DNA from: Bacteroidota bacterium
GTDB lineage: Bacteria > Bacteroidota > Ignavibacteria > Ignavibacteriales > Ignavibacteriaceae
Length of the DNA stretch: 38,098 nt
Direction of reading: 5' to 3'
Assembly: GCA_021813585.1 (NCBI GenBank)
Contig: JAKAJV010000024.1
Span: 1 to 38,098, forward strand
The position numbers and the translations under genes are program-made. Numbering within the stretch: position 1 is the first letter of the stretch; the number at the start of each line of letters is the position of its first letter. Below the pieces are notes generated by a model. It was not told where the DNA came from. It worked only from the letters and a program-made list of their open reading frames with translations, and ran no database searches. Shown here one piece after another: positions 8,288 to 28,900 of the stretch.

Positions 8288-9259
8288 ATGAAGACTCGTC
8301 TATTATATTCACTGATTACTGCTGTATTGTTCTGGGGGATGTCGACAGTAATAACTTACAGCCAGACATATTCTTCTATTACATGGTATCTGGATCAAGT
8401 GGACAGCACAACTCCTACCGTAATTTACGGGCCTTTAACAGGCCAGCCAATTGTCGGCTCGCCTTTGAAGGATAATGTTCAATTTGTAATTAGAAGTTAT
8501 ACCGGCGGTTTTACCGGTACGGGTCCTATCCCTGGGGTTTCGTCCTCAATGCGCTGGTGGCCGGTAGACGGTTCCGGCACTGCAGTATCCTGGGGAAATG
8601 AAACAGGTCAAAACAACGACCGATATGTTCAATTGCAAGCCGCGCCGAAACCGGGTTATTCGTGGACTGTTGATACGCTATCTATTTGGCTAGCCGGCGG
8701 CGGTACATCTTATGTAAGAGCGCGTATCTATTGGTCAACTGATCCGTTGTTTATTGTTCAGAACGAGCTTACTCCGGACACGGGCATTGCACTACAGCAT
8801 GCAACCAACGTTGGAATTGCACAATATACATACCCTGTTAATATATCCGTAAGCGATGGCCAATCACTGTATTTTAGAGTATATCCGTGGTACACTGCTT
8901 CGCCTTCAACTTCCAAGTATTTGTATACTCAATATGCTTACTTCTCCGGTACTACCTCACCAACAACAGCAGTTAAGGAAAGTCCCGAATTACCTAAGAC
9001 ATATTCGCTTTTACAAAACTATCCAAACCCGTTCAACCCATCTACTGTAATTGAATATCAGGTCCCTAAAAGCAGCTTTGTAAAGATTACTGTCTATAAT
9101 CTTCTGGGAAACGTGGTTGAAAATCTTGTAAACGAACAGCAGTCGGCAGGAGACTATACGGTTACTTTTAATGCGGTAAATTTACCTAGCGGAATATATT
9201 TCTATACCATAAATGCGGGCAGCTTTACCCAAACAAAAAAGATGATGCTGATTAAATGA
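8288..9259 (+). CDS. Small T9SS-secreted protein: one candidate carbohydrate-binding domain plus sorting domain
   Basis: A 323-residue protein with no recognisable catalytic domain. Signal peptide 1-26; residues about 28-225 are a beta-rich domain that begins SSITWYL and contains RYVQLQAAPKPGYSW, RARIYWSTDP and SDGQSLYFRVYPW; residues about 232-323 are a T9SS type A sorting domain (NYPNPFNPST, ending KKMMLIK). The same beta-rich domain occurs once in the next gene (pectate lyase) and three times in the methylesterase at 25969, which suggests that it binds pectin or the cell surface. AAAGGA lies 8 nt before the ATG. Its leader carries the double operator at 7825-7853, so it is probably induced early with the receptor. 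Function is inferred from domain sharing only. Confidence 0.75.
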   Translation: MKTRLLYSLITAVLFWGMSTVITYSQTYSSITWYLDQVDSTTPTVIYGPLTGQPIVGSPLKDNVQFVIRSYTGGFTGTGPIPGVSSSMRWWPVDGSGTAVSWGNETGQNNDRYVQLQAAPKPGYSWTVDTLSIWLAGGGTSYVRARIYWSTDPLFIVQNELTPDTGIALQHATNVGIAQYTYPVNISVSDGQSLYFRVYPWYTASPSTSKYLYTQYAYFSGTTSPTTAVKESPELPKTYSLLQNYPNPFNPSTVIEYQVPKSSFVKITVYNLLGNVVENLVNEQQSAGDYTVTFNAVNLPSGIYFYTINAGSFTQTKKMMLIK

Positions 9260-9289
9260 TTTTTAAATTTATTGTTAGTAGAATTAATC

Positions 9290-9323
9290 GAACCGGCCCG
9301 GGTAAATATTTATGGGCCGGTTC
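9290..9323 (+). terminator. Hairpin between small T9SS protein and pectate lyase
   Basis: GAACCGGCCC and GGGCCGGTTC form a perfect GC-rich 10-bp stem with a 14-nt loop, followed by a pyrimidine-rich tract (TACTTACTTTTC). It is a good partial terminator that would make the small binding protein more abundant than the lyase. Confidence 0.65.
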
Positions 9324-9377
9324 TACTTACTTTTCTAAAATTAATTACCTTTTCGGAATATAATAGTCGGGATTAAA

Positions 9378-11933
9378 GTGGGACAAATAAAATCTACGTT
9401 CTCTTTCTCTGTCTTCTTTCTTTTATTAATTTTCTCATCATATTCACTTGCTCAGAACACATCTTCTGTAAAATGGAATCTTGTTCCGCCGGATTCGCAG
9501 CGCGTTTCATCCGATTCCGGTTTTGTAAGCGGTTATAATGTTGCAGGCAGCAATATTATTATTAGAGATTATACCGGCGTTCTTAACGATGGGGTTAGTA
9601 CCGGTCCCCTTGGTAAATACCAAAGATGGTATTTGAACGCTAATTGGCCGAGCGAGACTTCGCAGAATAATTCTCGCTTCATTCAATTTGAAGTAAGAGC
9701 CGATGCCGGTTATACACTCAGCATAAATTCAATTTCATTTTATATTAATGCCGGCGGTACCGGTAATATGCTGGCAAATTTTTATTATTCAACCGATACA
9801 AGTTTTACTTCACCCATCCTATTAAATACCGGCGGTCCGTTTGCCGTTTCTAGAGATGTTGCTGCTCAGATAAAATATTCTGTTCAGGCTTCTGTTGGAA
9901 ACGGACAATCATTTTATTTTAGAATTTATCCCTGGCTGCCTGGCGGCTCAACCAACACAGGAAAATATATTTACCTTCAGGAAGTAATCATTTCCGGGAT
10001 TACATTTAGTTTCGGCGACACTACATCTCCATCTCTGCCGGTTCTTACAACATCAAATATTACGAATATAAAATCCACATCTGCAGCCTGCGGCGGCAAT
10101 GTTACTTCAGACGGTGGCGCTGCTGTTACACAAAGAGGCGTCTGCTGGAATACGACTGAGAATCCGTCAACCGGCGCAAGCAAGACGTCCGACGGCACCG
10201 GCACCGGCAGTTATACAAGCACGTTGACGAATCTAAAGCCAGGCACTACATACTACGTACGCGCTTACGCTGTAAACAGCGCCGGAACAAATTACGGCCA
10301 GCAGCTTGCATTTACAACTAATACGGATACAACCGGAGCGCTGCTTGCCTTTCCGGGGGCTGAAGGTTTCGGCAGATATACCAGCGGAGGCAGAGGAGGA
10401 AGAATTATTCAAGTTACTAATTTGAAAGACGACAACAATCCCGGAAGCTTTAGATATGCTATCAACCAGTCCGGACCTAGAATCATCGTGTTTACCGTTT
10501 CGGGAACCATAATGCTGAATTCCGATTTAAATATTTCAAACGGTAATTTAACTATTGCCGGTCAGACTGCACCGGGCGACGGAATTTGCATTGCCAACCA
10601 TACGGTGGAATGCAAAGCTAGCAATGTTATCGTTCGTTATTTGCGCTTCAGGCTTGGCGATTTAACCAAGGAGGCAAATGATTCGTTCTGGGGAAGAGAG
10701 CAAAAAAATATTATAATTGATCATTGCTCATTCAGCTGGGCAATTGATGAAAACGGCAGCTGGTATGACAATACAAATTTTACAATGCAATGGTGCATAT
10801 ACAGCGAGAGCCTGTATCATTCGTTTCATCCGAAGGGCGACCACGGCTACGGCGGCATTTGGGGCGGTATCGGAGCTACTTTTCACCACAACTTAATTGC
10901 GGACAACTCCAGCCGCAATCCCAGGTTTAACGGTGCAAGGTACATTTCTACTCATGCAACGGAACTAGTAGATTTTAGGAACAATGTAATTTTCAACTGG
11001 GGCTTTAACAGCGCTTACGGCGGCGAGTCGGGCAATCAAAATATTATAAACAATTATTATAAGCCGGGTCCTGCAACCAGCTCTAGCAAAACAGATAGGA
11101 TAGTCAATCCTTCCGATCCGTTAAATCCGGGTACCGGCTACAGCAAGTGGTATGTTGCCGGCAATTATGTTGAAGGGAATTCCACCGTCTCGGCAGACAA
11201 TTGGAACGGCGGTGTTCAGCCGGAAGACGCCCCGCTGGATTCTATTAAACTTAATAATCCGCTGCCTGCGGCGCCTGTAGTTACACAGTCGGCCCAGGAT
11301 GCTTACAATTCTGTTTTACAAAATGCAGGCGCAAATTTCCCTGCAAGAGATTCCGCCGATTTAAGAGTAGTTAATGAAGTTAAAACCGGATACGCTCCTT
11401 TTGGAGCCACTTATAACGGCGGCAAAAAAGGAATTATCGACTCTCAAAAGGATGTAGGCGGCTGGCCGGTACTTAAAAGTCTGCCTGCGCCTTTGGATTC
11501 CGATCATGATGGTATGCCGGATGACTGGGAGATTGCGCGTGGATTGAATCCTAACGATTCAACAGATTCGCATAAGACAGCGCCCGACGGTTACACTTAT
11601 ATTGAAGATTACATAAACGGTCTCGTTCCTCAAAATATAATGGCAGTAAAAGAGACGAGCCAAATTCCAAGCTCATTAGCATTATTGCAGAACTTCCCGA
11701 ACCCGTTCAATCCCAATACTAAAATTGAATATCAAATCCCTAGAACAGAAAAGGTGAGAATTGAAGTCTTCGATTTGCTTGGCAGAAGACTGGCTGTCTT
11801 AGTAGATGGTATTATTTCGGCGGGAGAACATAATATTAATTTTAATGCATCCGGCTTAAGCTCCGGTGTATATATTTATAGATTGTCATCTTCCAATCAA
11901 ATTATTTCCAGGAAGATGATCGTTATAAAATAA
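9378..11933 (+). CDS. T9SS-secreted PL1 pectate lyase with N-terminal candidate binding domain
   Basis: An 851-residue modular pectate lyase (beta-elimination of polygalacturonate). Signal peptide 1-26; candidate binding domain about 30-208 (SSVKWNLVPPDS to LQEVIISG); a fibronectin-III-like domain about 218-312 ending PGTTYYVRAYAVNSAGTNYG; PL1 beta-helix about 320-690 starting AFPGAEGFG, with IDHCSFSW near 447 (calcium-binding Asp region) and SRNPRFNGAR near 510 (catalytic Arg region); a calcium-loop segment DSDHDGMPDDWE near 708; T9SS domain about 765-851 (NFPNPFNPNT). The start is a GTG at 9378 since no in-frame ATG precedes the signal sequence; its ribosome site is weak. The N-terminal domain is about 60 percent like the first one in the methylesterase at 25969 by eye. 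Family call is firm; start is less so. Confidence 0.9.
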   Translation: MGQIKSTFSFSVFFLLLIFSSYSLAQNTSSVKWNLVPPDSQRVSSDSGFVSGYNVAGSNIIIRDYTGVLNDGVSTGPLGKYQRWYLNANWPSETSQNNSRFIQFEVRADAGYTLSINSISFYINAGGTGNMLANFYYSTDTSFTSPILLNTGGPFAVSRDVAAQIKYSVQASVGNGQSFYFRIYPWLPGGSTNTGKYIYLQEVIISGITFSFGDTTSPSLPVLTTSNITNIKSTSAACGGNVTSDGGAAVTQRGVCWNTTENPSTGASKTSDGTGTGSYTSTLTNLKPGTTYYVRAYAVNSAGTNYGQQLAFTTNTDTTGALLAFPGAEGFGRYTSGGRGGRIIQVTNLKDDNNPGSFRYAINQSGPRIIVFTVSGTIMLNSDLNISNGNLTIAGQTAPGDGICIANHTVECKASNVIVRYLRFRLGDLTKEANDSFWGREQKNIIIDHCSFSWAIDENGSWYDNTNFTMQWCIYSESLYHSFHPKGDHGYGGIWGGIGATFHHNLIADNSSRNPRFNGARYISTHATELVDFRNNVIFNWGFNSAYGGESGNQNIINNYYKPGPATSSSKTDRIVNPSDPLNPGTGYSKWYVAGNYVEGNSTVSADNWNGGVQPEDAPLDSIKLNNPLPAAPVVTQSAQDAYNSVLQNAGANFPARDSADLRVVNEVKTGYAPFGATYNGGKKGIIDSQKDVGGWPVLKSLPAPLDSDHDGMPDDWEIARGLNPNDSTDSHKTAPDGYTYIEDYINGLVPQNIMAVKETSQIPSSLALLQNFPNPFNPNTKIEYQIPRTEKVRIEVFDLLGRRLAVLVDGIISAGEHNINFNASGLSSGVYIYRLSSSNQIISRKMIVIK

Positions 11934-12056
11934 TAGCGACGTGTACGGCAAATAGAAATTTAATTCTTCCCCGGCAGTTATTAGTTCAATAAAAATTTAT
12001 AAGCGGTTAAAGATTAATAAACAAAGAAAAAAAAATATTTTTAGGAGAGTAAGAAA

Positions 12057-15000
12057 ATGCTACTAAAAATTCTACGAAGGTACCTTGATCTTTTTAAGAT
12101 AGGGATCATTCTTATCTCCGTTCTCACTGTAGTTACTTCCAGCGCCGATGCGCAAAACAGAAGCAGGATTACGGGAACGGTAAAGGATGCTAAATCGGGT
12201 GAGAACCTGGTTGGAGTAAACGTGGTAGTGCAAGGTACATCTTTAGGTGCTGCAACTGATATAAACGGTCAATACTTTATTGTAAACGTACCGGTCGGTA
12301 CTTACAATTTGAAAGTATCCATGATTGGTTACAAGACTCAAATAATAACAGGAGTTGTTGTATCGCTAGACCGTGTAACCCAGGAAGACATTTCCATGGA
12401 GCCCTCGGTTATAGAAGCACAGGCAGTTGTAGTAACCGCTAAAAGGGACGAGCTGCACAAGGAGGTTTCTAGTACGCAGCTTGTGGTTAACGACAGGGAG
12501 ATTAACAGTACTTCCGGAATTAGGGCGATAAATACTTTCCTTGAGAAACTGCCCGGTGTAGGTGAAAACGACAACGGCTATCTAACCATTAGAGGAGGCA
12601 GCGCCGACCAGACTGGTACGTTTGTAAACGGACTGGCATTTAACAACGCGTCAAACGGAAATGCTGAAACCTCGATTCCCTTAAGCGCAATCGAACAGGT
12701 ATCTCTAATGTCCGGCGGCTACAATGCGGAATACGGAAATTTCCGCTCCGGCTTAATTAACATAACTACTAAGAGCGGCTCTACAAGCGGCTACCACGGT
12801 ACATTCAGTTTGTCTACCGATCAGTCCCATATGAGAAGATTCGGCCAGTCGTACTTCGACCCTCACAACGATTTTTTAGTATCATACTTAGACCCATCGG
12901 TCGCTTTCCAGGGAACTTCAAAAGCGTGGGCTAATGACCCGTACATGCAGCAGCAGCATCCTAAATTCGACGGCTATAATTTACTCGCCGCATCCAGGAC
13001 TTACCAGGTGAACTACCCCGGCGTTACAGCGCTGGACATGTATTTGTTAACTGCATGGCAGTTTAGAGTAATACCGGATTATGCAGGGCTGTCTAAATTA
13101 GGATATACTGTTCCCGAGGACCAGCAAAAATTATTTGCCGCAAGGGCAGGCAACGAAAGCTTCAGCGATTTTAACTTCGACGGCGGCTTCGGCGGTCCTG
13201 TTCCTTTTGTAAGCCATCTATTGGGCGATGCTACCTTTTACGTTTCCAATAATACAAAGCAGCAGCATTACACTATGCCCGTAACCCTGGACCACGATTT
13301 TTCATCGACAACACTGCTGACCATGAAATCCACCCCTGCGCAGAGCATGACGTTGACTCTTAACGGGCTGTGGAAAAGAGAGATCGGCGTTACTCCGATT
13401 ATTCCCGTAAACGGCGATGCACCCGATGCCAACGATAGAGGCGGCTTCATGCCTATCGATAATATCCAGTACAAATCGGATGACTTCGTTTATTCTTACG
13501 ATCCGAACTATTACCCGATACTCGATCAGACAACCGTAATGTCTGGCTTAACTTTAAACCAGATGCTTAGCACAAAAACTTTTTATGAATTAACATTAAG
13601 CTATTTAAGAATACAAGATCATACCCCGTTCGGCGACAACCGGGATACCACTACAATTACGCACTTCGGACCGTTCGGTGTTGATATGACGCCTTTCGGC
13701 AAATCTCAATTCAATCCCGAACAATACAGCGCTTATTCGTTTACAATACCCTGGGTAAGCAACATGGTGCTAGGGCACAGAGAAGGCGACCTGCACGACA
13801 ACCAGGTAACCGAGCAGTATGCAGCAAAGTTTAATATCGCTTCCCAGCTGGATGACCATAACTACGTTAAGGCGGGAATCGAATATAATATGATTCATCT
13901 TAACCATTTGTTCTATGAAGTTTGGAACCAGAACTCGTACAACACTTATGAATATAACTACGACCGGAAGCCGAGCCAGACGGGATTGTTCGTTCAAGAC
14001 CAAATGACATACGGCAGCATTGTAGCAAATTTAGGCGTAAGGTTCGATTATTACTACGGCGGCGGCGGGCTTTGGCCGGCACAGCCGTTTGCGTACGATG
14101 CCTACGCTCCTCAATCTATTGGTAAAGCCAACGACAGTACGCTGTATGAATACTTAGCTTCCGGTAAATCCTATATCTGGGATTACTGGTATCAATATAA
14201 TCAAACACACCCCGGGTTCCTTGAACCAATTAAAAATTATTTTACCGTAAGCCCCAGGCTCGGAGTTTCATTCCCGGTAACTACCAACTCCAAGTTTTAT
14301 TTTAATTACGGTCAGTTCAGGTCCAATCCGCCTTATTACACAATGTACCAGTTCAAATACAGGTATACAAAGAACGGTCTGTACCAGATGTCCAACCCGA
14401 ACCTGGAACCGCCGAGGACAATTTCTTATGAGCTTGGCGTGGCGTATAATTTTTATCAAAACTATGTTGTAAGAATATCAGGCTATTATAAAGATGTTAC
14501 CGGCCAGTACGGCACAGTTACATATCAGTCGGCTCAGCCGGAACATCCGAATTTGAATTACAAATCGTATTTGAATAACCAGTACCAGGATATTCAGGGC
14601 GTTGAGGTTAATTTATCCAAGAACGACAACAGCTGGTTTACCGGCTGGGTAAATTTTAATTATATGCTTACCAAAACGGGCAACACCGGTGTAAGTACAA
14701 TAACGGATATTGTAATCAACAATTCTTCTTCTACATTGTACCAGGGCAACGAATCGCGTGCATTGCCGCAGCCGAGTGTTAACGCAAACGTTACTCTGCG
14801 CTCCCCGGATAAATGGGGCCCCCAGCTTGGCGGTCTAGATATCTTCGGTAACTGGAGCCTTACATTATTCGCGCAGTGGAGAGCAGGCGATTATTTTACA
14901 TGGAACCCGCTTAACGATCCGTTTACCAACAACAACCTTACGTGGCCCAATTATTACATGGTCGATCTTAAATTAAGTAAAACATTTAATATTGCCGGAA

Positions 15001-15308
15001 CCCAGGCAACATTTTATGTAGACTGCACTAATCTTCTTAACCTGAAAGTAAATCAGCTGAGCCAGGGCTACCCGTTCCAGGATGCATCCGACGAGCAGCA
15101 GTACCTGGCATCGCTGCACCTGCCGATGTATAATTCTCCGCAGTTCGATCAACTAAGGAAACAGAATCCCGGATTGTACATTGCGGGCAACGATAAAGTC
15201 GGCGATCTGAGATCAGGTTCCAAACCGTATATTAATGATCCGAATTATTCTTTCTTTATGTACGATCAGCCCAGGGATATTTGGTTTGGAATGAAGGTTG
15301 ATTTTTAA
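12057..15308 (+). CDS. TonB-dependent receptor, first gene of a SusD-less uptake unit
   Basis: A 1083-residue outer-membrane receptor. Signal peptide 1-33; carboxypeptidase-regulatory-like domain about 34-117 (ITGTVKDAKSGENLVGVNV); plug about 135-245 with FLEKLPGVGENDNGYLTIRG and SGGYNAEYGNFRSGLINITT; barrel to the C-terminus, which ends IWFGMKVDF. The domain order resembles SusC/RagA, but the gene is followed after 24 bp by a large secreted protein unlike SusD and then by a PorV/PorQ-like gene, so the uptake unit has a different composition. AGGAG lies about 8 nt before the ATG. Codon use is slightly more GC-rich than the flanking intergenic DNA but like its two partners. Ligand is inferred to be a pectin fragment from the neighbourhood. 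Confidence 0.85.
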   Translation: MLLKILRRYLDLFKIGIILISVLTVVTSSADAQNRSRITGTVKDAKSGENLVGVNVVVQGTSLGAATDINGQYFIVNVPVGTYNLKVSMIGYKTQIITGVVVSLDRVTQEDISMEPSVIEAQAVVVTAKRDELHKEVSSTQLVVNDREINSTSGIRAINTFLEKLPGVGENDNGYLTIRGGSADQTGTFVNGLAFNNASNGNAETSIPLSAIEQVSLMSGGYNAEYGNFRSGLINITTKSGSTSGYHGTFSLSTDQSHMRRFGQSYFDPHNDFLVSYLDPSVAFQGTSKAWANDPYMQQQHPKFDGYNLLAASRTYQVNYPGVTALDMYLLTAWQFRVIPDYAGLSKLGYTVPEDQQKLFAARAGNESFSDFNFDGGFGGPVPFVSHLLGDATFYVSNNTKQQHYTMPVTLDHDFSSTTLLTMKSTPAQSMTLTLNGLWKREIGVTPIIPVNGDAPDANDRGGFMPIDNIQYKSDDFVYSYDPNYYPILDQTTVMSGLTLNQMLSTKTFYELTLSYLRIQDHTPFGDNRDTTTITHFGPFGVDMTPFGKSQFNPEQYSAYSFTIPWVSNMVLGHREGDLHDNQVTEQYAAKFNIASQLDDHNYVKAGIEYNMIHLNHLFYEVWNQNSYNTYEYNYDRKPSQTGLFVQDQMTYGSIVANLGVRFDYYYGGGGLWPAQPFAYDAYAPQSIGKANDSTLYEYLASGKSYIWDYWYQYNQTHPGFLEPIKNYFTVSPRLGVSFPVTTNSKFYFNYGQFRSNPPYYTMYQFKYRYTKNGLYQMSNPNLEPPRTISYELGVAYNFYQNYVVRISGYYKDVTGQYGTVTYQSAQPEHPNLNYKSYLNNQYQDIQGVEVNLSKNDNSWFTGWVNFNYMLTKTGNTGVSTITDIVINNSSSTLYQGNESRALPQPSVNANVTLRSPDKWGPQLGGLDIFGNWSLTLFAQWRAGDYFTWNPLNDPFTNNNLTWPNYYMVDLKLSKTFNIAGTQATFYVDCTNLLNLKVNQLSQGYPFQDASDEQQYLASLHLPMYNSPQFDQLRKQNPGLYIAGNDKVGDLRSGSKPYINDPNYSFFMYDQPRDIWFGMKVDF

Positions 15309-15332
15309 AAATTTAAGAGATTGGAGATCAAA

Positions 15333-17507
15333 ATGAATAATGTTAAAAATAAACTGCCGGGAGCTGCAATATTTAAAGCCGGTATTTTTCTGATGCTGTT
15401 TTTATTAATTAATCCTGAGTTAAAAGCCCAAACTCAACCGGAACTGCAAACTGCGGTTATGAAGCTGGGGCATCTATGGCTGGGTGTGGCTGCCAATGGC
15501 TACCGGTCTAGCTTTGAATACCTGTCCGGGTACTTCCCGAACGATTTTGATATTATGGCAAACCGCGGGCAGTATGCGGAAAGCTATACGGGCGCGGGAA
15601 TAGTACTTACGGCTCTGCACTGGTTTAATCCTCTGGTCGATTCGGTTCAAACAGTATCGCAGTACAGCTTTACTAGCAGTCTTTATCCTGCCTGGCAGGC
15701 CGGTAAGGTTCTCGTTCCTATTACAAACTATTTAAGGTACGGCTACCCGGATCAAGTGGTTAATTTTACAACCGTACCGCTGGATAACTTCGGTACCGTT
15801 AATCCGGCGTACGGCGCGTTTCAAAATCATACCTACGATGAGATTGTTCAGGTTACCGATTCGACAATTCTCGGTATAAATGTAAGCAGAACACTGCTCG
15901 GGTGGTCTCAAAATTATAACGACGATTACGTAATTGCCGACCTTATGTTTACCAATGCAAGCGCAGATACACTGGACAGCGTTTATATCAATTTAAATTT
16001 TTCTAAAGACAACCTTGAATATTCAAACGGGCACAATCCCGCGCCTGGAACAAGCGATAACTTTAAGCTGGGCAGCAACGACTGGCATCATTACTACGGA
16101 GGAAAGCCGGGCGATTCGCTGAGAGTATTTTACGAATACAGTGCTGACGATCCTCAGAAGCCGGGAGACAATATGGGCTCTCCCGCAGTTACGCAGAACG
16201 GAAGACTGCTTGACCCGGATTTTACTTACATGACGGTACTTCATGCTTCCAAACAGCCGTTTACGGATGCCAGCCAGGATGTAGATGATTTTATGCAGCC
16301 AAAGGTTACGTATTTCGGAAGGAACTTTCCAAAGACGGTTCAAAACGATGTTTACAACAGCAGCAACTTTTATGTAATCCGAGGCGGATTTTCGGACGAC
16401 TACCCGATGCCCGGCGCCTTCCCGGATACCCACCACGAGGCTAACGGCGACGAGATGGGCTTTGCAGATAATTCCCAAACTCCCGCCGCTTACCCTGAAA
16501 ACGCATCGTACAGATATGTAAGCTTCGGGCCTTACACAATGCTTCCCGGTCAAAAGGTTCACATTGTTTATGCAAACGGCTACACAGGCATCGGCTTTAA
16601 GAAAGGCCAGGAGGTTGGACAGGAATGGCTGGACGGTACTTTGCAGGATCCGCCCAACATGCCCAACCCTAATACAGGCTGGCTGCCCGCTAATTTCCAG
16701 TTCCCCTCCGGCGCAACCGAAATGGATAAGAGGAAAGACAAATGGATTAGCATGGGATTAGATTCCGTAATGCTTAGCGCATACAGAGCTAAATGGAACT
16801 ATGACCATAACTATAACATACCGCAGGCTCCGCCTCCACCGGAGACGGTGAGTGTTACAGGCTACGGCGACGGAGTTGAAATTGACTGGACTGATCCGCA
16901 GGCGGAAACAATGCCGGACTTTGCCGGCTACAGGATAATGGCGAGAATATCCAACGCCGATACCATTTTTTATAGCCCGGTTTATAATTCCGATGCGTCG
17001 GATAAATCGGCTAAGCATTCATTCAAATTAAAGGATGTACTTTTCGGCGCTCAATATTATTTTTATGTCCAGTCCAAGGCGTTAATTGCATCAGACGACC
17101 CGAATGCAGACTCCACAACGCGCGGGAAAATGATGTACAGCAGCCGGCTGCTGTTCCCGGATATAAATTCGGTGCAGCCGCCTCACTTCCCGCAGGGCGA
17201 TTTGTCGAAGATAAGAATAGTGCCTAACCCGTATAACATTAAAGACCCTCTCTTAATTACGTATGGATTTACAAATCAGAGGAACATAGCATTTTACAAT
17301 TTGCCGTCGCAGTGCACTATAAAAATATTTACCGAGAACGGCGACCTTGTTCAGACAATTCAGCACAACAATCCGCTGGGAACCGGATCTGAAAATTGGA
17401 ATATGCTGACTAGCAGCCAGCAGGTTATTAACAGCGGTGTTTATATTGCGGTTTTCCAAAAACCGAGCGGTGAAATATCTTATCAAAAGTTTATCGTAGT
17501 ACGGTAA
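15333..17507 (+). CDS. Large secreted partner protein of TonB receptor, FN3-like and T9SS-like tail
   Basis: A 724-residue protein of unrecognised family. Signal peptide about 1-33 (ending ELKAQ); an N-terminal region rich in aromatic residues (LGHLWLGVAANGY, GIVLTALHWFNP); a middle beta-rich region with SRTLLGWSQNYNDDYVIADL; a fibronectin-III-like domain about 496-586 (GDGVEIDWTDP, YYFYVQSKAL); and a C-terminal sandwich about 625-724 with RIVPNPYN and SGVYIAVFQKPSG that resembles a T9SS/FlgD-type tail. ATG 15333 was chosen because GGAG lies 6 nt upstream; a TTG at 15321 overlaps that site. Placed 24 bp after the receptor and 18 bp before the PorV-like gene, it is the natural candidate for a surface lid or glycan-capture subunit replacing SusD, which is an inference. 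Confidence 0.7.
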   Translation: MNNVKNKLPGAAIFKAGIFLMLFLLINPELKAQTQPELQTAVMKLGHLWLGVAANGYRSSFEYLSGYFPNDFDIMANRGQYAESYTGAGIVLTALHWFNPLVDSVQTVSQYSFTSSLYPAWQAGKVLVPITNYLRYGYPDQVVNFTTVPLDNFGTVNPAYGAFQNHTYDEIVQVTDSTILGINVSRTLLGWSQNYNDDYVIADLMFTNASADTLDSVYINLNFSKDNLEYSNGHNPAPGTSDNFKLGSNDWHHYYGGKPGDSLRVFYEYSADDPQKPGDNMGSPAVTQNGRLLDPDFTYMTVLHASKQPFTDASQDVDDFMQPKVTYFGRNFPKTVQNDVYNSSNFYVIRGGFSDDYPMPGAFPDTHHEANGDEMGFADNSQTPAAYPENASYRYVSFGPYTMLPGQKVHIVYANGYTGIGFKKGQEVGQEWLDGTLQDPPNMPNPNTGWLPANFQFPSGATEMDKRKDKWISMGLDSVMLSAYRAKWNYDHNYNIPQAPPPPETVSVTGYGDGVEIDWTDPQAETMPDFAGYRIMARISNADTIFYSPVYNSDASDKSAKHSFKLKDVLFGAQYYFYVQSKALIASDDPNADSTTRGKMMYSSRLLFPDINSVQPPHFPQGDLSKIRIVPNPYNIKDPLLITYGFTNQRNIAFYNLPSQCTIKIFTENGDLVQTIQHNNPLGTGSENWNMLTSSQQVINSGVYIAVFQKPSGEISYQKFIVVR

Positions 17508-17525
17508 AAAATAAGGAGTTTAAAA

Positions 17526-20712: not shown

Positions 20713-20720
20713 AATAATTA

Positions 20721-20811: not shown

Positions 20812-20852
20812 GAAAGGTTGAGAAACATCAGTAAATAAAATAGAAAGGAAAT

Positions 20853-22265
20853 ATGAACGGTTCAGTATTAGACAAATATCGTTTTTTTGATACCGATGAA
20901 AGGATAAGGCAGATTGCTTTTGATTTGTATTCTAGCGTAAAAGATTTACCTATCATCAGCCCGCACGGCCATGTGGACCCCGCCCTGCTTGCCGGTAACG
21001 AGCCTTTCCCGGATCCTACCGAGCTGTTTATAATTCCCGATCATTATATCTACAGGATGCTATACTCGCAGGGAATAAAACTGGAAGGCCTCGGCATTCC
21101 TACCGTTGACGGTACTGAAGTAGAGAAGGACCATAGAAAGATATGGCAAATCTTCGGCGATAATTTTTATCTTTTTGCCGGAACTCCTACCGGTGTGTGG
21201 CTTAGGCATGAGTTTGTGGAAGTCTTCGGCATCGAAGAGAAATTAAATTCTAAAAATGCGATGGATATTTATGACCGCATTCAGGAAAAATTGAAGACTA
21301 AAGAATTTTTGCCGAGAACCTTGTTTGATAAATTTAATATCGAAGTCCTTTCCACAACCGACGGCGCTGCCGATACTCTTGAGCATCATAAAAAAATAAA
21401 AGAATCGGGCTGGAAAGGAAGAGTTGTCCCCTGCTTCCGTCCCGATGCCGTTGTAAATATTTTAACAAAGAACTGGAAGAACGAGATCGACAGATTAAGC
21501 TCCGCCAGCAAAATAGAAATTAATTCTTATAAGGATTTTATTAAAGCCATTGAGAACCGGAGGGAATATTTCAAAGCCAACGGAGCGGTCTCTACCGATC
21601 AGGGAACAATCAGCCCGTATACACATAAGCTTTCTTACGGCGAGGCGGATGCAATTTTTAGCCGCGCGCTAAAAGGACTGGCAAGCGAAAGCGATTGGAT
21701 GCTTTTTACGGCCAATATGCTTATGGAAATGGCAAGGATGAGTACTGAGGACGGATTGGTTATGCAGTTACATCCCGGCTCTTTAAGGAACCATAACCAA
21801 AAATTGTATGAAAGATTCGGACTGGATAAGGGAGCCGATATTCCCGTACAAACCGAATACACGAAAAATCTTTACGAGCTTTTAAATAAGTACGGCAGTT
21901 ATCCGGGCTTCACGGTAATTGTTTTTACGCTTGATGAATCGACCTATTCAAGGGAACTGGCCACACTTGCCGGGCATTACCCTGCGATGAGATTGGGACC
22001 GCCGTGGTGGTTCCATGATAGTATTCAGGGCATGACGCGTTTCAGGCAGAGCGTTACGGAGACTGCAGGCTTTTATAATACCGTCGGATTTAACGACGAC
22101 ACACGGGCATTCCTGTCTATTCCGGCTCGGCACGATCTAGCCAGGAGAATGGATTCCAACTTTTTAGCCGGCCTGGTTGCAAGGCATATAATCGATATGG
22201 ATGAGGCAAGGCAATTAAGCCGTGCGCTTGCTTATGAACTGGTGAAAAAGGCATACAAACTTTAA
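20853..22265 (+). CDS. uxaC: Glucuronate/galacturonate isomerase
   Basis: Uronate isomerase, 470 residues, the usual length for UxaC. It converts D-galacturonate to D-tagaturonate (and D-glucuronate to D-fructuronate) in the cytoplasm. The N-terminal metal motif SPHGHVDP near residue 37 is the amidohydrolase-superfamily HxH, and RLGPPWWFHDSIQGM plus VGFNDDTRAF near the C-terminus are characteristic of the family. There is no signal peptide. AAAGGAA lies 5 nt before the ATG. It heads a tight run with kduI (46-bp gap) and kduD. The next steps after tagaturonate (UxaB, UxaA) are not encoded in the window. Confidence 0.95.
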   Translation: MNGSVLDKYRFFDTDERIRQIAFDLYSSVKDLPIISPHGHVDPALLAGNEPFPDPTELFIIPDHYIYRMLYSQGIKLEGLGIPTVDGTEVEKDHRKIWQIFGDNFYLFAGTPTGVWLRHEFVEVFGIEEKLNSKNAMDIYDRIQEKLKTKEFLPRTLFDKFNIEVLSTTDGAADTLEHHKKIKESGWKGRVVPCFRPDAVVNILTKNWKNEIDRLSSASKIEINSYKDFIKAIENRREYFKANGAVSTDQGTISPYTHKLSYGEADAIFSRALKGLASESDWMLFTANMLMEMARMSTEDGLVMQLHPGSLRNHNQKLYERFGLDKGADIPVQTEYTKNLYELLNKYGSYPGFTVIVFTLDESTYSRELATLAGHYPAMRLGPPWWFHDSIQGMTRFRQSVTETAGFYNTVGFNDDTRAFLSIPARHDLARRMDSNFLAGLVARHIIDMDEARQLSRALAYELVKKAYKL

Positions 22266-22311
22266 GGAAAATGTTTTATCTTGAATTAGCAACAAAAGAG
22301 GAATTAGAATA

Positions 22312-23145
22312 ATGGAAGTAAGATATTCTCCCGATCGGGTTAGTTTTAAAAAAATGAATACCGGGGAATTAAGAAAGGCATTTTTAATCGATTCGCTTTT
22401 TCAGCACGGTAAAGTAGAGATGATTTATTCGGATATCGACAGATCGATTACCGGCAGCGCGGTTCCAACCAATAACAATCTAAAGCTGCTTGCCAGCAGA
22501 AAAGAAATGGCCGCCGATTACTTTACTGAAAGGAGAGAGGTAGGTATTATTAATATCGGTGAGAAAGGAATTATTACTGTTGACGGCGAAAAGTTTTTGA
22601 TGGAACACAAGGACTGCTTATACATTGGCCGCGGTTCTAAGGAAGTAGAGTTCGGCAGCAGCGATCCGGTAAAACCGGCTAAGTTTTATTTTACCAGTTA
22701 TCCCGCCCATAAGGAATATCCGGTTAAGCATTTGAAATTTACAGACGCAGAGCCCGCAAAATTGGGCGAGCTTAAAAATGCAAATAAGCGGACTATATAT
22801 AAATATATTCATGAGAAAAACGTAAAGACCTGCCAGCTTGTAATGGGCTTAACCGAGCTTGAGACCGGCTGCAACTGGAATACAATGCCGGTGCATACGC
22901 ATCAAAGAAGATCAGAAGTTTACATGTATTTCAATTTAAGTGAAGACTCGTGTGTCTTTCATTTTCTCGGCGAGCCCGATGAAACGAGGCACATTATAGT
23001 CCGCAGCGGCCAGGCAGTTCTTTCGCCCAGCTACTCAATACACTCGGGCGTTGGTACGCAGAATTATTCTTTCATTTGGTCGATGGGCGGAGAAAACCAG
23101 GACTTTGATGACATGGACTGGGTAGAGACAAAAAATTTAAAATAA
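22312..23145 (+). CDS. kduI: 5-dehydro-4-deoxy-D-glucuronate isomerase
   Basis: Isomerase of 277 residues that converts the rearranged unsaturated uronate (4-deoxy-L-threo-5-hexosulose uronate) to 3-deoxy-D-glycero-2,5-hexodiulosonate. The zinc ligands of the family are all visible: His195 and His197 in MPVHTHQRRSE, Glu202, and His244 in SIHSGVG, one residue off the E. coli numbering. It is cytoplasmic, with no signal. AGAGGAA precedes the ATG by 9 nt. It uses the product released by the GH105 enzyme and hands on to KduD, encoded 18 bp downstream. Confidence 0.96.
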   Translation: MEVRYSPDRVSFKKMNTGELRKAFLIDSLFQHGKVEMIYSDIDRSITGSAVPTNNNLKLLASRKEMAADYFTERREVGIINIGEKGIITVDGEKFLMEHKDCLYIGRGSKEVEFGSSDPVKPAKFYFTSYPAHKEYPVKHLKFTDAEPAKLGELKNANKRTIYKYIHEKNVKTCQLVMGLTELETGCNWNTMPVHTHQRRSEVYMYFNLSEDSCVFHFLGEPDETRHIIVRSGQAVLSPSYSIHSGVGTQNYSFIWSMGGENQDFDDMDWVETKNLK

Positions 23146-23163
23146 ATTATATAAAGGGTATAA

Positions 23164-23925
23164 ATGATTTTAGATAAATTTAATCTTAACGGAAGGACGG
23201 CAGTTGTAACCGGTTCTAACAAAGGCATTGGGCAGGCATACGCATTAGCACTTGCAGAGGCCGGTGCCGATGTAATCGGAGTTTCCTTCGAAGATGATTT
23301 TTCGGAAACGGAAAAACTGATTACTAGTTTGGGCAGAAAATTTAAATCCTACCGCAGCGATTTTTCGATACGTGAATCGCTTTATGATTTTATTAAGAAT
23401 GTAAAAAATGATTTCCCGAAAATCGACATACTTGTTAATAATGCAGGCACTATTTTAAGAAAGCCTATAGCAGAGCATCCGGATGAATACTGGGATAAGG
23501 TAATTGAAGTAAATCTGAACTCTCAGTTTATCCTTACTAGAGAAATAGGTAAGGATATGGCAGAAAGAGGATACGGGAAAATTGTTTTTATTGCTTCGCT
23601 TCTTTCGTTTCAGGGCGGTATTTTAGTGCCCGGCTATGCAGCTTCGAAAGGCGGCGTAAAGCAATTGACAATGGCGTTTGCAAATGAGTGGGCATCTAGG
23701 GGTGTTACAATAAATGCAATTGCGCCCGGCTATATTGCGACTGATAATACCAAAGCTCTAAGAGAAGATACAGTGCGGGACAAAGCTATTGTTGACAGGA
23801 TACCCGCCGGCAGGTGGGGTACCCCGGAGGACTTAATGGGTACGGTAGTCTTTCTATGCTCTGATGCTTCCGCCTATTTAAATGGAAGCGTTGTTACGGT
23901 AGACGGCGGGTGGATGGGAAGATAA
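23164..23925 (+). CDS. kduD: 2-deoxy-D-gluconate 3-dehydrogenase / DKII reductase (SDR family)
   Basis: Short-chain dehydrogenase of 253 residues that reduces 3-deoxy-hexodiulosonate to 2-keto-3-deoxygluconate. It has the nucleotide motif TGSNKGIG at 16-23, NNAG at 92-95, Ser145 and the Tyr158/Lys162 pair in YAASKGG, and ends with the SDR tail LNGSVVTVDGGWMGR. SDR enzymes are numerous, but length, context directly after kduI and the start IldkFnLnGr fit KduD. Weak ribosome site AAAGGG 9 nt before the ATG. Last gene of the uxaC-kduI-kduD run. Confidence 0.93.
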   Translation: MILDKFNLNGRTAVVTGSNKGIGQAYALALAEAGADVIGVSFEDDFSETEKLITSLGRKFKSYRSDFSIRESLYDFIKNVKNDFPKIDILVNNAGTILRKPIAEHPDEYWDKVIEVNLNSQFILTREIGKDMAERGYGKIVFIASLLSFQGGILVPGYAASKGGVKQLTMAFANEWASRGVTINAIAPGYIATDNTKALREDTVRDKAIVDRIPAGRWGTPEDLMGTVVFLCSDASAYLNGSVVTVDGGWMGR

Positions 23926-23928
23926 AAA

Positions 23929-23943
23929 AATCTCCCGGAGATT
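23929..23943 (+). terminator. Short hairpin after kduD
   Basis: AATCTCCCGGAGATT, 6 bp stem and 3-nt loop, directly after the kduD stop and preceded by A7. It is too short for a confident terminator but positioned correctly, before the separate promoter of the LacI gene. Confidence 0.3.
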
Positions 23944-24003
23944 CATCCTTAAATAAATGCATTAATAATTTTCATTATAAGTATTGTTTTTGGTAAATTT
24001 TTC

Positions 24004-24009
24004 TATAAT
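24004..24009 (+). promoter_or_regulatory. -10 box TATAAT of the LacI gene
   Basis: Consensus TATAAT located 6 bp upstream of the operator motif, so a start of transcription would fall in the operator, the layout expected for repression. No clear -35 box (a T-rich TTGTTT is 14 bp upstream). Confidence 0.5.
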
Positions 24010-24015
24010 ATTACT

Positions 24016-24044
24016 AACCGTTAAAGTAATCGATAAAGTTATAA
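24016..24044. promoter_or_regulatory. LacI-type operator in front of its own regulator
   Basis: AACCGTTAAAGTAATCG (24016-24032) fits the shared motif and is followed, with the usual 12-bp offset, by CGATAAAGTTATAA (24031-24044). It lies 20 bp before the start codon of the LacI-family gene, which suggests autoregulation. Confidence 0.65.
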
Positions 24045-24063
24045 CTGCAAAGGGATTAATAAT

Positions 24064-25122
24064 TTGAATAAAAGGCTTCAGATTACACTTGATGATATTG
24101 CAAAGCAATTAAACGTATCAAAAGTTACTGTATCCAAGGCACTCCGCGGGCATCCCGACATATCGAAAGAAACTACCCAGCTTGTAAAAAAGGTGGCGCA
24201 TGAGCTGGGTTATACGCCTAATTACATGGCCAGGAATTTGTCATCCAAGAGATCGAACACGATCGGAGTAGTCGTTCCTAAAATTGCTCATTTCTTTTTT
24301 AGCGCGGTTATAGAATCAATTTACGATACTGCCTTCCATAACAATTACGAGATCATTTTAACTGCATCCCAGGAAAATGCAGCCAGAGAAATAAAGCATA
24401 TCGAGTCTTTACTGGCTATGCGTGTTGACGGCTTGATAGTGTCTATTACTCAGGAAACCCGCGATCATGCCATTTTCGAAAAGGTTATAAAATCCGGTGT
24501 GCCATTAATTTTTATGGATAGAATCTTAGACATCCAGGGCACAAGCTCTGTTGCTGTAAACGACAGGGAAGGTACTTTCCACGCCATCGATCATGCAATA
24601 AAACTCGGATACACTAAAATCGGTCACCTAGCCGGGTATCCTGAAATAAATATCGGATTGAACAGGTTCCTGGGCTTTGAAGATGCGATGAAGCAATACG
24701 GGCTTCCGATAAATCCTGATTGGGTTATATACGGCGGGTTCGGCGAAGAATTCGGCTACAGCGGCTTTATGAAATTATATCAGAGCAAAAATCTGCCCGA
24801 ATTTATTTTCACGGTTACATATCCGGTTGCTTTAGGTGTTTATGCAGCAGTAGAAGAACTCGGATTAAAAATTCCCGACGACATAGATATAATGTGCTTC
24901 GGCAACAGCGATGTAAACAGGTTTATTTCGCCTTCGTTAAGCTGTGTTAACCAGCCTACTGACAAGCTTGGAAAAGTTTCCGTTGAATTGATGATAGATC
25001 AAATTAAGAATATTGAGTCGTTCGAGCCTCAGCATATTGTTATTCCCACCGATTTGATATTTAGGGAAACTTGTTCTAAAAAGAAATTTGATTCTTACCC
25101 AAAAGCTTCGAGCAGGCCTTAG
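24064..25122 (+). CDS. LacI-family transcriptional regulator of the pectin locus
   Basis: A 352-residue regulator with an N-terminal helix-turn-helix (LDDIAKQLNVSKVTVSKALRG, start about residue 8) and hinge NYMARNLSSKRSNTIGVVVP, followed by a periplasmic-binding-type sensor domain (VDGLIVSITQE, DRILDIQ, GHLAG, FGNSDVNRFISPSLSCVNQP). The ligand is unknown; KDG or a galacturonate oligomer is likely given the neighbours. The start is TTG 24064 with AGGGA 8 nt upstream; the domain begins immediately, so an earlier start is unlikely. Four copies of a 17-bp motif in the window, including one in this promoter, are probable binding sites. Confidence 0.92.
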   Translation: MNKRLQITLDDIAKQLNVSKVTVSKALRGHPDISKETTQLVKKVAHELGYTPNYMARNLSSKRSNTIGVVVPKIAHFFFSAVIESIYDTAFHNNYEIILTASQENAAREIKHIESLLAMRVDGLIVSITQETRDHAIFEKVIKSGVPLIFMDRILDIQGTSSVAVNDREGTFHAIDHAIKLGYTKIGHLAGYPEINIGLNRFLGFEDAMKQYGLPINPDWVIYGGFGEEFGYSGFMKLYQSKNLPEFIFTVTYPVALGVYAAVEELGLKIPDDIDIMCFGNSDVNRFISPSLSCVNQPTDKLGKVSVELMIDQIKNIESFEPQHIVIPTDLIFRETCSKKKFDSYPKASSRP

Positions 25123-25169
25123 TTCATTTGGGTTAATAGGTAACTGAAAAATTTTTTAAATATATAAGT

Positions 25170-25186
25170 AACCGATAAAGTAAACG
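25170..25186. promoter_or_regulatory. LacI-type operator before the aldolase gene
   Basis: AACCGATAAAGTAAACG, an exact fit to the shared 17-bp motif, 15 bp before the ATG at 25202 and just downstream of TATAAG (25163-25168), a possible -10 box. The second overlapping copy seen at the other three sites is degenerate here. Confidence 0.6.
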
Positions 25187-25201
25187 ATATTGAGAAATCA
25201 A

Positions 25202-25843
25202 ATGAGCAGGCAAGAAATAATAAGTACACTTATAGAATCGAAGGCAATTGCTGTAATCAGATTATCCGATCCGGGCAAACTGATAAGAGTGGCTGAGGCT
25301 ATTTATAACGGCGGTGTGAAAGGGATAGAAATTACCATGACAGTTCCCGATGCAATAAACGTTATAAGGACTGCGGTTAAAGAACTCGGAAGCCGGATGA
25401 ATATTGGTGTCGGTTCCGTTCTAGATGCAGGCACTGCCCAGCGCGCTATAGATGCCGGTGCAAGCTATGTTGTCAGCCCTATTTTTAAAAAGGAAATAAT
25501 TGAAACAGCTCATAGGAACGATGTACCTGCAATGCCGGGAGCTTTTACGCCAACGGAAATTCAAGCCGCATTTGAGGCAGGTGCGGATATAATAAAAATT
25601 TTTCCCGCAGATGTAGTCGGGATGGCATTCTTTAAAGGAGTGCTGGCTCCGATGCCTCATCTAAAGTTGATGCCGACGGGCGGAGTTACACTAAGCAACG
25701 CGGGCGAATGGTTAAAAGCAGGCGCATGTGCAGTGGGGGTAGGTTCTGCACTGCTAGATAAAAAAGCAATCGATTCGGGTAATTATAAAATTCTTACGGA
25801 CAATGCCCTTGTTCTGATTGAAAGTATTAAAAAGGCATTATAG
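25202..25843 (+). CDS. eda: Bifunctional KDPG/KHG aldolase
   Basis: Class I aldolase of 213 residues that cleaves 2-keto-3-deoxy-6-phosphogluconate to pyruvate and glyceraldehyde 3-phosphate, the last step of uronate catabolism. The Schiff-base Lys132 lies in ADIIKIFPADVVG and the catalytic Glu43 in GIEITMTVP, both in the expected places. Other family marks are VGSVLDAGTAQRAIDAGA and MPTGGV. ATG 25202 was preferred; a TTG at 25190 would add four residues and lies 3 bp from the operator. The gene has its own operator, separate from kduD, so it responds to the same regulator. No KDG kinase is adjacent. Confidence 0.94.
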   Translation: MSRQEIISTLIESKAIAVIRLSDPGKLIRVAEAIYNGGVKGIEITMTVPDAINVIRTAVKELGSRMNIGVGSVLDAGTAQRAIDAGASYVVSPIFKKEIIETAHRNDVPAMPGAFTPTEIQAAFEAGADIIKIFPADVVGMAFFKGVLAPMPHLKLMPTGGVTLSNAGEWLKAGACAVGVGSALLDKKAIDSGNYKILTDNALVLIESIKKAL

Positions 25844-25968
25844 AAACCATGTTAGTAGAGAATTCTTAAAGACTAGTATACCGGTAAATCCTAAGCCTCA
25901 TCTTTCTCAAAACATTTTAATCAAAATTAATTCCATTAATTAATCACCTATAAACTACTGGAGTAAGC

Positions 25969-28900
25969 ATGAATAAATATACTGTATTCGTACTTTCGGC
26001 AATTGCTGGATTAATATTTTCTACCAGCATTCTTGCTCAAAGTGCCGCATCCGTTGAATGGAAATGCGTTCCGCCTGACAGCCTTAATGTATCGGCAGTT
26101 GCAGGGAATGTAGCCGGGCAGCCTCTGGGCGGTACTATGATTGCGAGAGATTATGCAGGGGTATTGAGTAACGGCACTACAACCGGTCCCTTAGGAAAAT
26201 ATCAAAGATGGTATTTGAATGCAAACTGGCCGAATGATACCGTCATGAATCCGGCCCGCTACATTCAGGCAACGGCATCTCCTCAGAAGACCTATACTTT
26301 TAATGTAACGTCAATTTCGTTTTACCTTAATTCCGGGGGAACGGGTAATATGAAAGCTAGCGTTTATTGTTCAACTGACCCGTCTTTTTCTACTTCCACA
26401 TTACTGGATACAGGCTTTGCGGTTTCCAGGGATACTGTTGCTCAGCATGTCTATTCCGTAAATTTAACGGTAGCAGACGGACAGTCAATCTATCTTAGAA
26501 TATTCCCTTGGCTGCCGGGCGGCTCCACAAATTCTGGCAAATACATTTATCTTCAGGATGTAATAATCTCCGGTACCTCGATGGGTGTTACGTATCCTGC
26601 TTCTGCAACATGGCCTTTAACAAATCCCAGTTCCGGGGGAACCGGTCAATCGGTAACTACAGCAGGGCAGGTACTATCCGGCGACGAATATCTTAATAAC
26701 ATGGGCATCAACCAATATTCCGGCCCTAACTCAAGTCAGAGGCTGAGAATTTCCAATAACAGCTGGCCTGCAAACCAGACAACGCAGATTGACACTGTAT
26801 TTGCTCAGTTTGCCGTATCGCCGAAGCCGGGCTTTAAGCTTCATGTTAATTCGGTTTCACTCGGCATTGCCGCCGCATCAATAAATACGATGAAGGCGAA
26901 TATTTATTATTCTACAGATTCTACTTTCGCTACTAAAACATTAATTAATTATTCAACCGGCGATACTGCTAACAACTATTTAAGATTGGACTCGCTTACT
27001 ACAGTAACGGCTTCGCCGGGCGTAGTTGTTAATTCCGGCGGGACTTTTTATGTAAGAATCTATCCTTGGGTAAATAACGATCCTAGCGTTAGAACAGGAA
27101 AATATGTCTGCATTCAAAATGTGGTAATAGGCGGAGCTATAGAAGGGACTCCGAATCCGGCTTCTTCAATTTGGCCTTTGCAGACAGATCAGAACCCCAT
27201 TACCACCGGCTCGGTAAATGCAGCGGCTCAGGCTTTCAGTTCTGCAATGAAGTTTTATGGATTTACACAATTGCCGACGGTTGCAGGTTATCAGACTACA
27301 GTGGGTGCAATTCAAACTGTTGTAAAAACCTGGAACGCAGAGCCGAACCCGGTAGACAGCATGTGGTTTCAATATGCCGTTTCGCCTAAGCACGGCGGCA
27401 CATTTTATGTTGATAGTGTTTCGTTCTTTTTAGGCGGATGGTTTTCTAGTAATTTGAGAGCCGCAGTTTATTATTCCAAAGATTCTACATTCGCAACAAA
27501 GACGTTGTTAATTCCGGATACTGCATTACCTGGAAATGCAGTGGCTCCTTTCGGCGCTTCGCTTAACCAGACTGTAAACTCCGGCGAAACATTTTATTTG
27601 AGGTTTTACCCCCACGATACAAAAGCCGAAGGCTGGGCGAAGCTTATTGCAGTCGATAGTATTATGATCGCGGGGACAACCGTCGGTGTAACAGCCGATC
27701 CTCCTACTGTAACCACCGCAAATGTTACAAATATATCAACAACATTCGCTGCAAGCGGAGGTAATATTTCTACCGACGGCGGCGCCCCCGTTACTGCACG
27801 GGGAGTTGTGTGGGATACTGCAAGCGCTCCGACAGTTGCAGGGCACAAGACGAACGACGGTGCAGGCTCAGGCTCATTTGTTAGTACCGTAACCAACTTG
27901 ACGGCAGGCAGGACATATCATCTGCGCGCATACGCCACTAACAGTGCGGGAACCTCATACGGCAGCGAAGTAGTATTTACGACTCTTGATTCTACGCAGG
28001 TGCCCACCGTTATAACAACTGCGGTTACAAATATTCTTGTTGCCACTGCAATATCCGGCGGGCAGGTTACTGCCTGGGGCGGAGATACCGTAAGCGCCCG
28101 CGGAGTTTGCTGGAATACAACCGGCAATCCTACAATTGCAGACAGCAAAACAGTAGACGGTAGCGGTTTGGGAACTTACACAAGTACGCTATATCCTCTA
28201 ACTGCCAACACTACATACTACGTTAGAGCCTATGCAACCAACAGCATCGGCACAGGGTACGGAGTTGTAGATACGTTTATGACTCAGTCTCCTGCACCTC
28301 CGGTTACTAAAGTTGTTGCCAAAGATGGCAGCGGAGACTACACCACAGTACAAGCCGCCTTCGATGCCGTACCGGATAACTATACAGGCACATATACAAT
28401 TTTCGTTAAGAACGGCGTGTACAAGGAAAAGCTGATGCTGGCACAAACCAAAGTGAACGTAGTGCTCGAAGGTGAAAGCCGGGACAGCACCATTTTAACA
28501 TACGATGATTATGCCGGTAAAAATAATCTCGGAACGTCCGGTTCCTACAGTGTTGATATTGAAGGAACGGATTTTACTGCCAAGAATATTACTTTCCAGA
28601 ATACGGTTGTTAACGACGGTTCTGTTGCCAATCAGCAGGCGGTGGCCCTAGAAACCAACGGCGACAGACAGAGTTATTACAACTGTAAAATACTCGGTTA
28701 CCAGGATACCTATTACTCCAGAGGCGCGCATGGAACTGACCGCATCTACATGAAGGACTGTTATATTGCCGGCTCGGTCGATTTTATTTTCGGGCGCGAT
28801 ATAGTAGTATTCGACAGCTGCGAAATTCATATCAACAGGAACGGAGGCACATTAACGGCAGCGTCTACAGATGCTGCATCAAGCTTCGGGTACGTATTCC

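Follow-up and report, generated by a model that had tools for sequence, protein, structure and literature searches.

Among the described modules that resemble the domain reported here is BT0996-C (PDB 7zvo), a CBM35/CBM6-like carbohydrate-binding module (CBM) of a rhamnogalacturonan II (RG-II) enzyme from Bacteroides thetaiotaomicron. According to its published description, BT0996-C binds polygalacturonic acid through lysine and arginine residues and has an isoelectric point (pI) of 9.4, a broad lysine patch and no exposed aromatic groove (PMC9843283). The ligand of another family, CBM77, is given as homogalacturonan in PMC9668655, and a further module, PDB 8x8h, bears the PDB title 'a carbohydrate binding domain of a putative pectate lyase'. 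Here we describe a domain of about 180 residues that occurs five times in one stretch of DNA from an Ignavibacteriaceae genome (Bacteroidota; assembly GCA_021813585.1, contig JAKAJV010000024.1, positions 1 to 38,098), which is called the window. The domain is probably a non-catalytic jelly-roll module for binding pectic polysaccharide, with the galacturonic-acid backbone as its likeliest target, and the libraries searched do not contain it.

A first-pass annotation of the window had placed five copies, D1 to D5, in three secreted proteins, and both their coordinates and the blastp similarity of all pairs agree with this. The proteins, which carry type IX secretion system (T9SS) sorting tails, and the copies are as follows; lengths are in amino acids (aa).

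8288..9259, + strand: p8288, the stand-alone protein, 323 aa, with signal peptide, D1 and T9SS sorting tail (about 9020-9247)
8369..8959, + strand: D1, 197 aa, in p8288
9378..11933, + strand: p9378, 851 aa, with D2, an fn3-like module, a PL1-type pectate lyase (about 10341-11477) and T9SS tail (about 11694-11924)
9459..10007, + strand: D2, 183 aa, in p9378, ahead of the PL1-type lyase
25969..29799, + strand: p25969, 1276 aa, with D3, D4, D5, two fn3-like modules, a CE8 pectinesterase (28312-29178) and T9SS tail (about 29560-29787)
26044..26583, + strand: D3, 180 aa, in p25969
26596..27144, + strand: D4, 183 aa, in p25969
27157..27684, + strand: D5, 176 aa, in p25969

All three proteins are T9SS cargo, with a type A sorting domain (TIGR04183/PF18962) above cut-off in 3/3. 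The protein at 8288, described at first as the domain alone in a T9SS protein, does have the tail, found by family-model match, but it also has a signal peptide, read off the translation, besides D1. In p9378 and p25969 short fn3-like modules separate the copies from the catalytic domain. The lyase of p9378 matches the PelZ model at E 9.8e-40, yet lies under that model's own cut-off.

All pairs of copies are similar by blastp, some over partial length only, from D2-D3 (59-60% identity, E 9e-77) to D2-D5 (28%, E 5e-13). The nearest copy to D3 is D2, and the two share the stretch GPLGKYQRWYLNANWP, 16 residues that are identical in both, as had been noticed. With D2 alone as whole-genome query the weakest match among the five was D5, at E 4.5e-10, and 19 columns are invariant across D1-D5. 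The motifs proposed as shared marks fit D2 and D3 closely and D1, D4 and D5 only in part. The genome holds six copies in four proteins: the count of five stands for the window, and the sixth is part of a 607-aa T9SS protein encoded on a different contig (G000:C36:41393-41950).

The domain is uncatalogued in Pfam, NCBIfam and PHROGs, a comparison that did not extend to CAZy/dbCAN and InterPro. Pfam and NCBIfam, searched with an E ceiling of 10 (although HMMER discards most matches weaker than 0.1), contained no model covering D1-D5; what they matched in the window proteins were the fn3-like modules, the CE8 domain, the PelZ-type PL1 domain and the T9SS tails, and the NCBIfam model of a BT0360-type arabinosidase matched the fn3-like modules, not the domain. 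A search of PHROGs with the domain gave nothing at E 0.1. The first-pass annotation had not recognised a named family such as CBM77, and the CBM77 model, PF18283 (108 positions), indeed matches no copy: across the whole genome at E 10 it had one match, on contig C132, and none on C13. At the same threshold and scope the CBM35 profile (PF16990) matched C18, C19 and C73 only and the CBM4/9 profile (PF02018) C142 and C51 only, neither touching a copy. No copy had a strong match to a family with a known non-binding role in the libraries searched. Scattered single-copy Pfam matches, to 14 families with a best E of 0.0024 and each in at most 3 of 104 relatives, were rejected. Searched against solved structures, the sequence of p8288 matched only a T9SS tail. 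A 104-row profile of the domain found 10 distinct PDB sequences at E<=10, the best eight being designed beta-trefoils (top E 0.0016, about 40 residues, with no stretch passing alone), and we rejected homology here as chance or composition. No title or abstract among those listed from the open literature names the domain; subscription papers lay outside that search, and we do not claim that it is absent from print.

The fold is predicted with high confidence to be a galactose-binding-like jelly roll, a beta-sandwich. D2, the copy modelled in three dimensions and the reference for all residue numbers below, gave a model from a 104-row alignment with mean pLDDT 97.3, pTM 0.92, twelve strands and no helix, which agrees with the earlier description of the domain as beta-rich and with the beta-sandwich that the first reading required. 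Structures aligned by VIA-align 2 at Z>=10 cover 124-152 of its 183 residues. At E<=0.001 Foldseek listed 40 PDB chains, and many are CBMs (1wky, CBM4, CBM22, CBM11, CBM15, CBM35, 8x8h, 7zvo). TM-scores on the query are modest, 0.21-0.46 in the 50 listed rows; among the nearest solved folds is a CBM35 bound to glucuronic acid (4qb2). The match to 7zvo (E 6.5e-4, probability 1.00, TM 0.49 on target) is to a jelly roll from another Bacteroidota pectin enzyme, but 7zvo was solved over 131 residues, shares 10% identity, and is more basic than most copies of our domain. The match to 8x8h is similar (E 3.6e-4, probability 1.00, TM 0.56 on target), but identity is 12%, 8x8h has 144 residues, and it was absent from the matches of the PDB profile search. 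CBM4, CBM22 and CBM61 align at Z of about 10-12 over 131-152 residues, and CBM11 and CBM35 are alike by Foldseek. These families too are modules appended to plant-wall enzymes, but identity in the fold matches is about 7-15%, and the Pfam models CBM_35 and CBM_4_9 miss the copies at E 10. CBM77 has the job supposed here and belongs to the beta-sandwich class, but differs in sequence as described.

Relatives of the domain are widespread. A profile from the six copies matches 26/197 genomes of the class, the source genome included, and a wider profile matches 44/395 genomes from the phylum, many at low score. When genome contigs were scanned by pattern, 57 loci came up, including Ignavibacteria, KSB1, Caldithrix, Rhodothermia, Rufibacter, Pontibacter and gut Bacteroidaceae; among viral contigs the 25 pattern matches contained 0 relatives. 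The 175 open reading frames (ORFs) recovered were reduced to 112 non-redundant proteins: an ORF was removed if a longer one enclosed it or had a domain copy in common with it. The 112 include 4 from the source genome, several cut at locus ends and some near-identical relatives. Partner domains were assigned by custom iterated hidden Markov models, with a Pfam check on the ORFs of 38 relatives (among which L028 and L134 are one protein) and 9 window proteins.

A pectin-type partner, taken as CE8, PL1, PL9, a GDSL esterase or a PL6-like beta-helix, is present in 76/112 proteins: CE8 in 38, GDSL in 21, a pectate-lyase-4 type in 6, GDSL with CE8 in 4, PL1 in 3, PL9 in 2, and PL1 with CE8 and a beta-helix in 1 each. 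Restricting the partners to CE8, PL1 and PL9, all of which act on galacturonan, leaves 54/112. The 36 proteins without such a partner comprise 7 short stand-alone T9SS proteins, truncated ORFs, proteins of unassigned architecture and surface proteins unrelated to pectin. The GDSL partner is read from context as of the rhamnogalacturonan-acetylesterase kind; for the GDSL-linked copies CE8 is fused or in the fetched locus in 16/23, two further loci being too short to judge. On one contig (L086), from a metagenome-assembled genome titled Bacillota but possibly misassigned, a single protein combines GDSL, the domain and CE8, an arrangement also seen in Bacteroidaceae. The suspicion that the domain travels among enzymes is supported in other genomes. 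Its place varies: ahead of, behind or between catalytic domains (between two in L065 and L125, C-terminal in the GDSL proteins and L043), one to three in tandem, and often directly behind the signal peptide. The domain, which we take to be non-catalytic, fits in these respects the description of a CBM, a discrete module appended to carbohydrate-active enzymes, with a compact predicted fold and CE8, PL1, PL9 and GDSL partners.

The genomic setting points the same way. Stand-alone forms lie near pectin enzymes in 6/7 loci (the window, L121 with its near copy L041, L132, L139, L140 and L053), a count made on longer loci and the window, a separate neighbourhood count on 3 long loci giving 2/3; at the seventh, L055, a GH43-like gene and a TonB receptor alone were seen. 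At E 0.001, CE8 is found in 24/26 genomes with the domain and 16/171 without (Fisher p 4e-18, uncorrected for kinship), and above the Pfam cut-off in 23/26 and 11/171. The two domain-bearing genomes without CE8, G113 and G191, and G149, whose CE8 falls under the cut-off, hold copies of a subclade, described below, that lacks pectin partners.

Near-invariant residues are W6, W63, G149, R155, Y157, P158 and G180. A lysine at position 169 best separates the copies by partner: K169 is present in 108/110 copies with a pectin-type partner and in 1/21 with another, the next-best column giving 76/110 and 2/21. These figures come from 159 aligned copies with 28 left out (20 of unknown partner, 7 stand-alone, 1 cut ORF). 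Twelve of the 21 'other' labels (L113, L118-L120, L146, L149) were preset; the later Pfam scan of these, with longer frames for L118-L120, found Ig, cadherin-like, PA14, SdrD-type and similar domains and no pectin domain, L113 being cut at both ends. The exceptions among pectin-type copies are L092, with glutamine, and L093, with a gap in a cut ORF; D1-D5 all have the lysine (5/5). K169 as a proven determinant was rejected, since the tree of copies has three independent partner switches and a sign test on three cannot reach 0.05. The association is suggestive only. In the strand list, our sole basis here, strand 151-160 has W159 close to its end and strand 170-182 comes after K169; both residues thus border one loop, and a candidate sugar site would be loop 161-168 flanked by these two residues.

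A divergent version of the domain (25-45 bits) stands ahead of CE8 in gut-derived Bacteroidaceae (L061:6382-6903, L063, L072, L074, L081 and others). It keeps the lysine in 5/5 CE8 proteins and is possibly a second branch of the family.

As the domain recurs in pectin-degrading enzymes of related bacteria, it most likely anchors the enzymes or the cell on pectin. The proteins, whose tails are seen, would be exported by Sec and the type IX system. The module would then meet pectin, either in the wall or dissolved, and retain it through a putative aromatic and basic site close to loop 161-168. A lyase or esterase that carries the module would stay on its substrate, the D3-D5 triplet may raise the avidity of the esterase, and the stand-alone T9SS-exported copy may hold pectin at the cell surface. 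BT0996-C may serve, by analogy, as a measured precedent for polygalacturonate binding by a jelly roll of near fold. The manner of binding would have to differ in most copies, as these are mostly not basic and would need a site rather than a charged face: pI is 5.1 in D1, 7.8 in D2, 8.0 in D3, 8.8 in D4 and 6.1 in D5, with a median of 8.6 in the 7 stand-alones and of 5.0 in the 67 CE8-linked copies. Bulk positive charge is not supported as a general binding mode.

Several observations weigh against pectin binding as the general role. The search was seeded from pectin proteins, favouring pectin-linked relatives. The 67 CE8-linked copies have a median pI of 5.0, whereas 7zvo binds by charge. The control GH10 xylanase is also enriched (14/26 genomes with the domain, 16/171 without, p 5e-7), which suggests that co-occurrence partly reflects general use of plant polymers and that the pectin link is stronger but not exclusive. 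The neighbours of the sixth copy on C36 do not look pectin-related. The lysine is kept in L124:4598-6880, where cohesin-type and cadherin-like domains accompany the copy in a T9SS protein, and of the three partner switches two were concordant with K169 and one showed no difference. A subclade of 10 copies (L134-L138, L146, L029, L113; 97% support by the Shimodaira-Hasegawa-like approximate likelihood ratio test, SH-aLRT) belongs to T9SS-type proteins. Among the fold matches, the Foldseek list also holds MAM and reelin domains and two jelly-roll enzymes, 6al6 and 8jmr, and MAM, reelin and gingipain-adhesin domains have Z-scores equal to or above those of the CBMs.

The partner domains of this subclade are propeller, Ig-like, SdrD or LamG, its residue at 169 is serine or threonine, and no pectin genes were found in the six long loci examined. 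The pectin link first proposed holds as a strong partner bias, but since this subclade and some low-scoring relatives are in proteins without pectin domains, 'pectin' is not an apt name for the whole family. Separately, a low-scoring tandem pair without the lysine opens large Big_9/cadherin-like and PA14 proteins (L149, L177, L178, L179).

It is unlikely, though a serious alternative, that the domain is a CBM for some other ligand: a pectin side chain (galactan or arabinan), rhamnogalacturonan I (RG-I) or a wall glycan beside pectin. Among the folds close to it are CBM61 (2xom), which binds galactan, as well as xylan and glucan CBMs; its copies are mostly not basic; and GDSL esterases, of a kind expected to act on rhamnogalacturonan, rank second to CE8 among its partners. 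Against this are the galacturonan-acting partners CE8, PL1 and PL9 and the presence of K169 in almost all copies with a pectin-type partner.

Rather improbable, in our judgement, is a role without any sugar ligand, as a module for cell-surface adhesion or protein-protein contact, gingipain-adhesin- or MAM-like, or as a structural spacer, common in T9SS cargo. The VIA-align 2 ranking has meprin MAM and reelin first, at Z 12-13, followed by CBMs at Z 10-12 and the Kgp adhesins at Z 11, and with such domains as near as the CBMs the fold alone cannot separate sugar from protein binding. The Kgp K1/K3 adhesin and MAM domains share the jelly-roll class, and Kgp adhesins are likewise T9SS cargo; a T9SS tail is present in at least 65/112 of our proteins, and one subclade and some low-scoring relatives belong to proteins with propeller, Ig, cadherin-like, PA14 or LamG domains. 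But the copies have no Pfam match to such a family, and we know of no link between Kgp adhesin or MAM domains and pectin enzymes. The partners are strongly biased towards pectin enzymes, and K169 is missing from the non-pectin subclade. A T9SS tail within the open frame itself is present in 0/25 GDSL-linked proteins, which shows that the domain is not tied to T9SS; in L093 a second frame just downstream carries the domain end and a T9SS tail. A catalytic domain, or an inhibitor or pro-domain of the adjoining enzyme, is very improbable: the frequent place right behind the signal peptide is that of pro-domains, and 6al6 and 8jmr, enzymes with a jelly roll as catalytic domain, match at E <0.001, but the domain stands N-terminally, centrally and C-terminally, in one to three copies and also alone, and its nearest folds are mostly binding modules.

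The history of the copies was read from a tree of 145 of them, with SH-aLRT support for its sets. D5 groups with the last copies of other CE8 proteins (15-row set, 100%) and D4 with the second copies of other triple-domain CE8 proteins (11-row set, 92%), and the two have 74% and 72% identity, respectively, to their counterparts in L051. As these copies cluster by slot, the second and last slots are old. D2 and D3 form one 10-row set (99%) with a PL1 copy from another genome (L125), the copy in the first slot of L037 and six copies that two Rhodothermia-type proteins contribute. Seven other CE8 proteins have a complete triplet, and their first copies fall outside this set. The placing of D3 with D2, apart from those first copies, marks the first slot as the exchangeable one, and a copy has passed between esterase and lyase. 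The DNA of D2 and D3 has 68% identical letters over 403 bases, so the exchange was not recent. The stand-alone D1 groups with L043 in a set of 7 rows (95%).

The window is a pectin-use locus. Beside the three proteins above it contains the following.

5807..7477, + strand: p5807, a beta-helix T9SS protein without a Pfam catalytic model
2636: TonB receptor (Pfam)
18586: GH88 (Pfam)
32093: Pec_lyase, pectic acid lyase (Pfam)
33393: GDSL esterase (Pfam)

From their translations we also take 67-1914 to be GH43-like, 20853 uronate isomerase-like, 22312 KduI-like, 23164 KduD-like, 25190 KDPG-aldolase-like, and 30195 and 35670 GH28-like. An ORF at 15321-17507 (728 aa, TTG start) has no Pfam match at E 0.01 and is flanked by what are presumably TonB-receptor-like and PorV-like genes.

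Searched against Pfam at E 0.01, p5807 had T9SS-tail-type matches only and no catalytic model. Its predicted model is a beta-helix (pLDDT 86.7, 19-row alignment) whose closest Foldseek neighbours are PL6 alginate lyases and RbmB, at E 5e-5 and 1.6e-4, and its relatives are in 36/197 genomes of the class. It is a candidate uncatalogued polysaccharide lyase of the pectin cluster. L043:4525-6867 is a single protein with a p5807-type beta-helix, the domain and a T9SS tail. As p5807 and p8288 are separate adjoining genes in the window and their parts are fused in L043, the two proteins may act together. A p5807-type beta-helix is also present within a 2330-aa open frame of L171 (G033:C11).

A wider picture can be offered only tentatively. 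The domain may define an unnumbered, pectin-specific CBM family across Ignavibacteria, KSB1, Rhodothermia and Bacteroidales, with its stand-alone T9SS form a surface pectin receptor for the cluster, in a role like that of SusE/SusF-type glycan-binding lipoproteins elsewhere, and one lineage moved to other surface proteins with loss of the binding lysine. In either case the domain is a new family of a familiar kind and not a new kind of system. If it does bind pectin, some 180 blank residues in pectinesterases, pectate lyases and GDSL esterases would gain a function, in environmental and gut Bacteroidota and their kin alike. The domain would then be usable as a pectin probe, and annotation pipelines could use it to flag proteins directed at pectin, among them short T9SS proteins now taken for unknowns.

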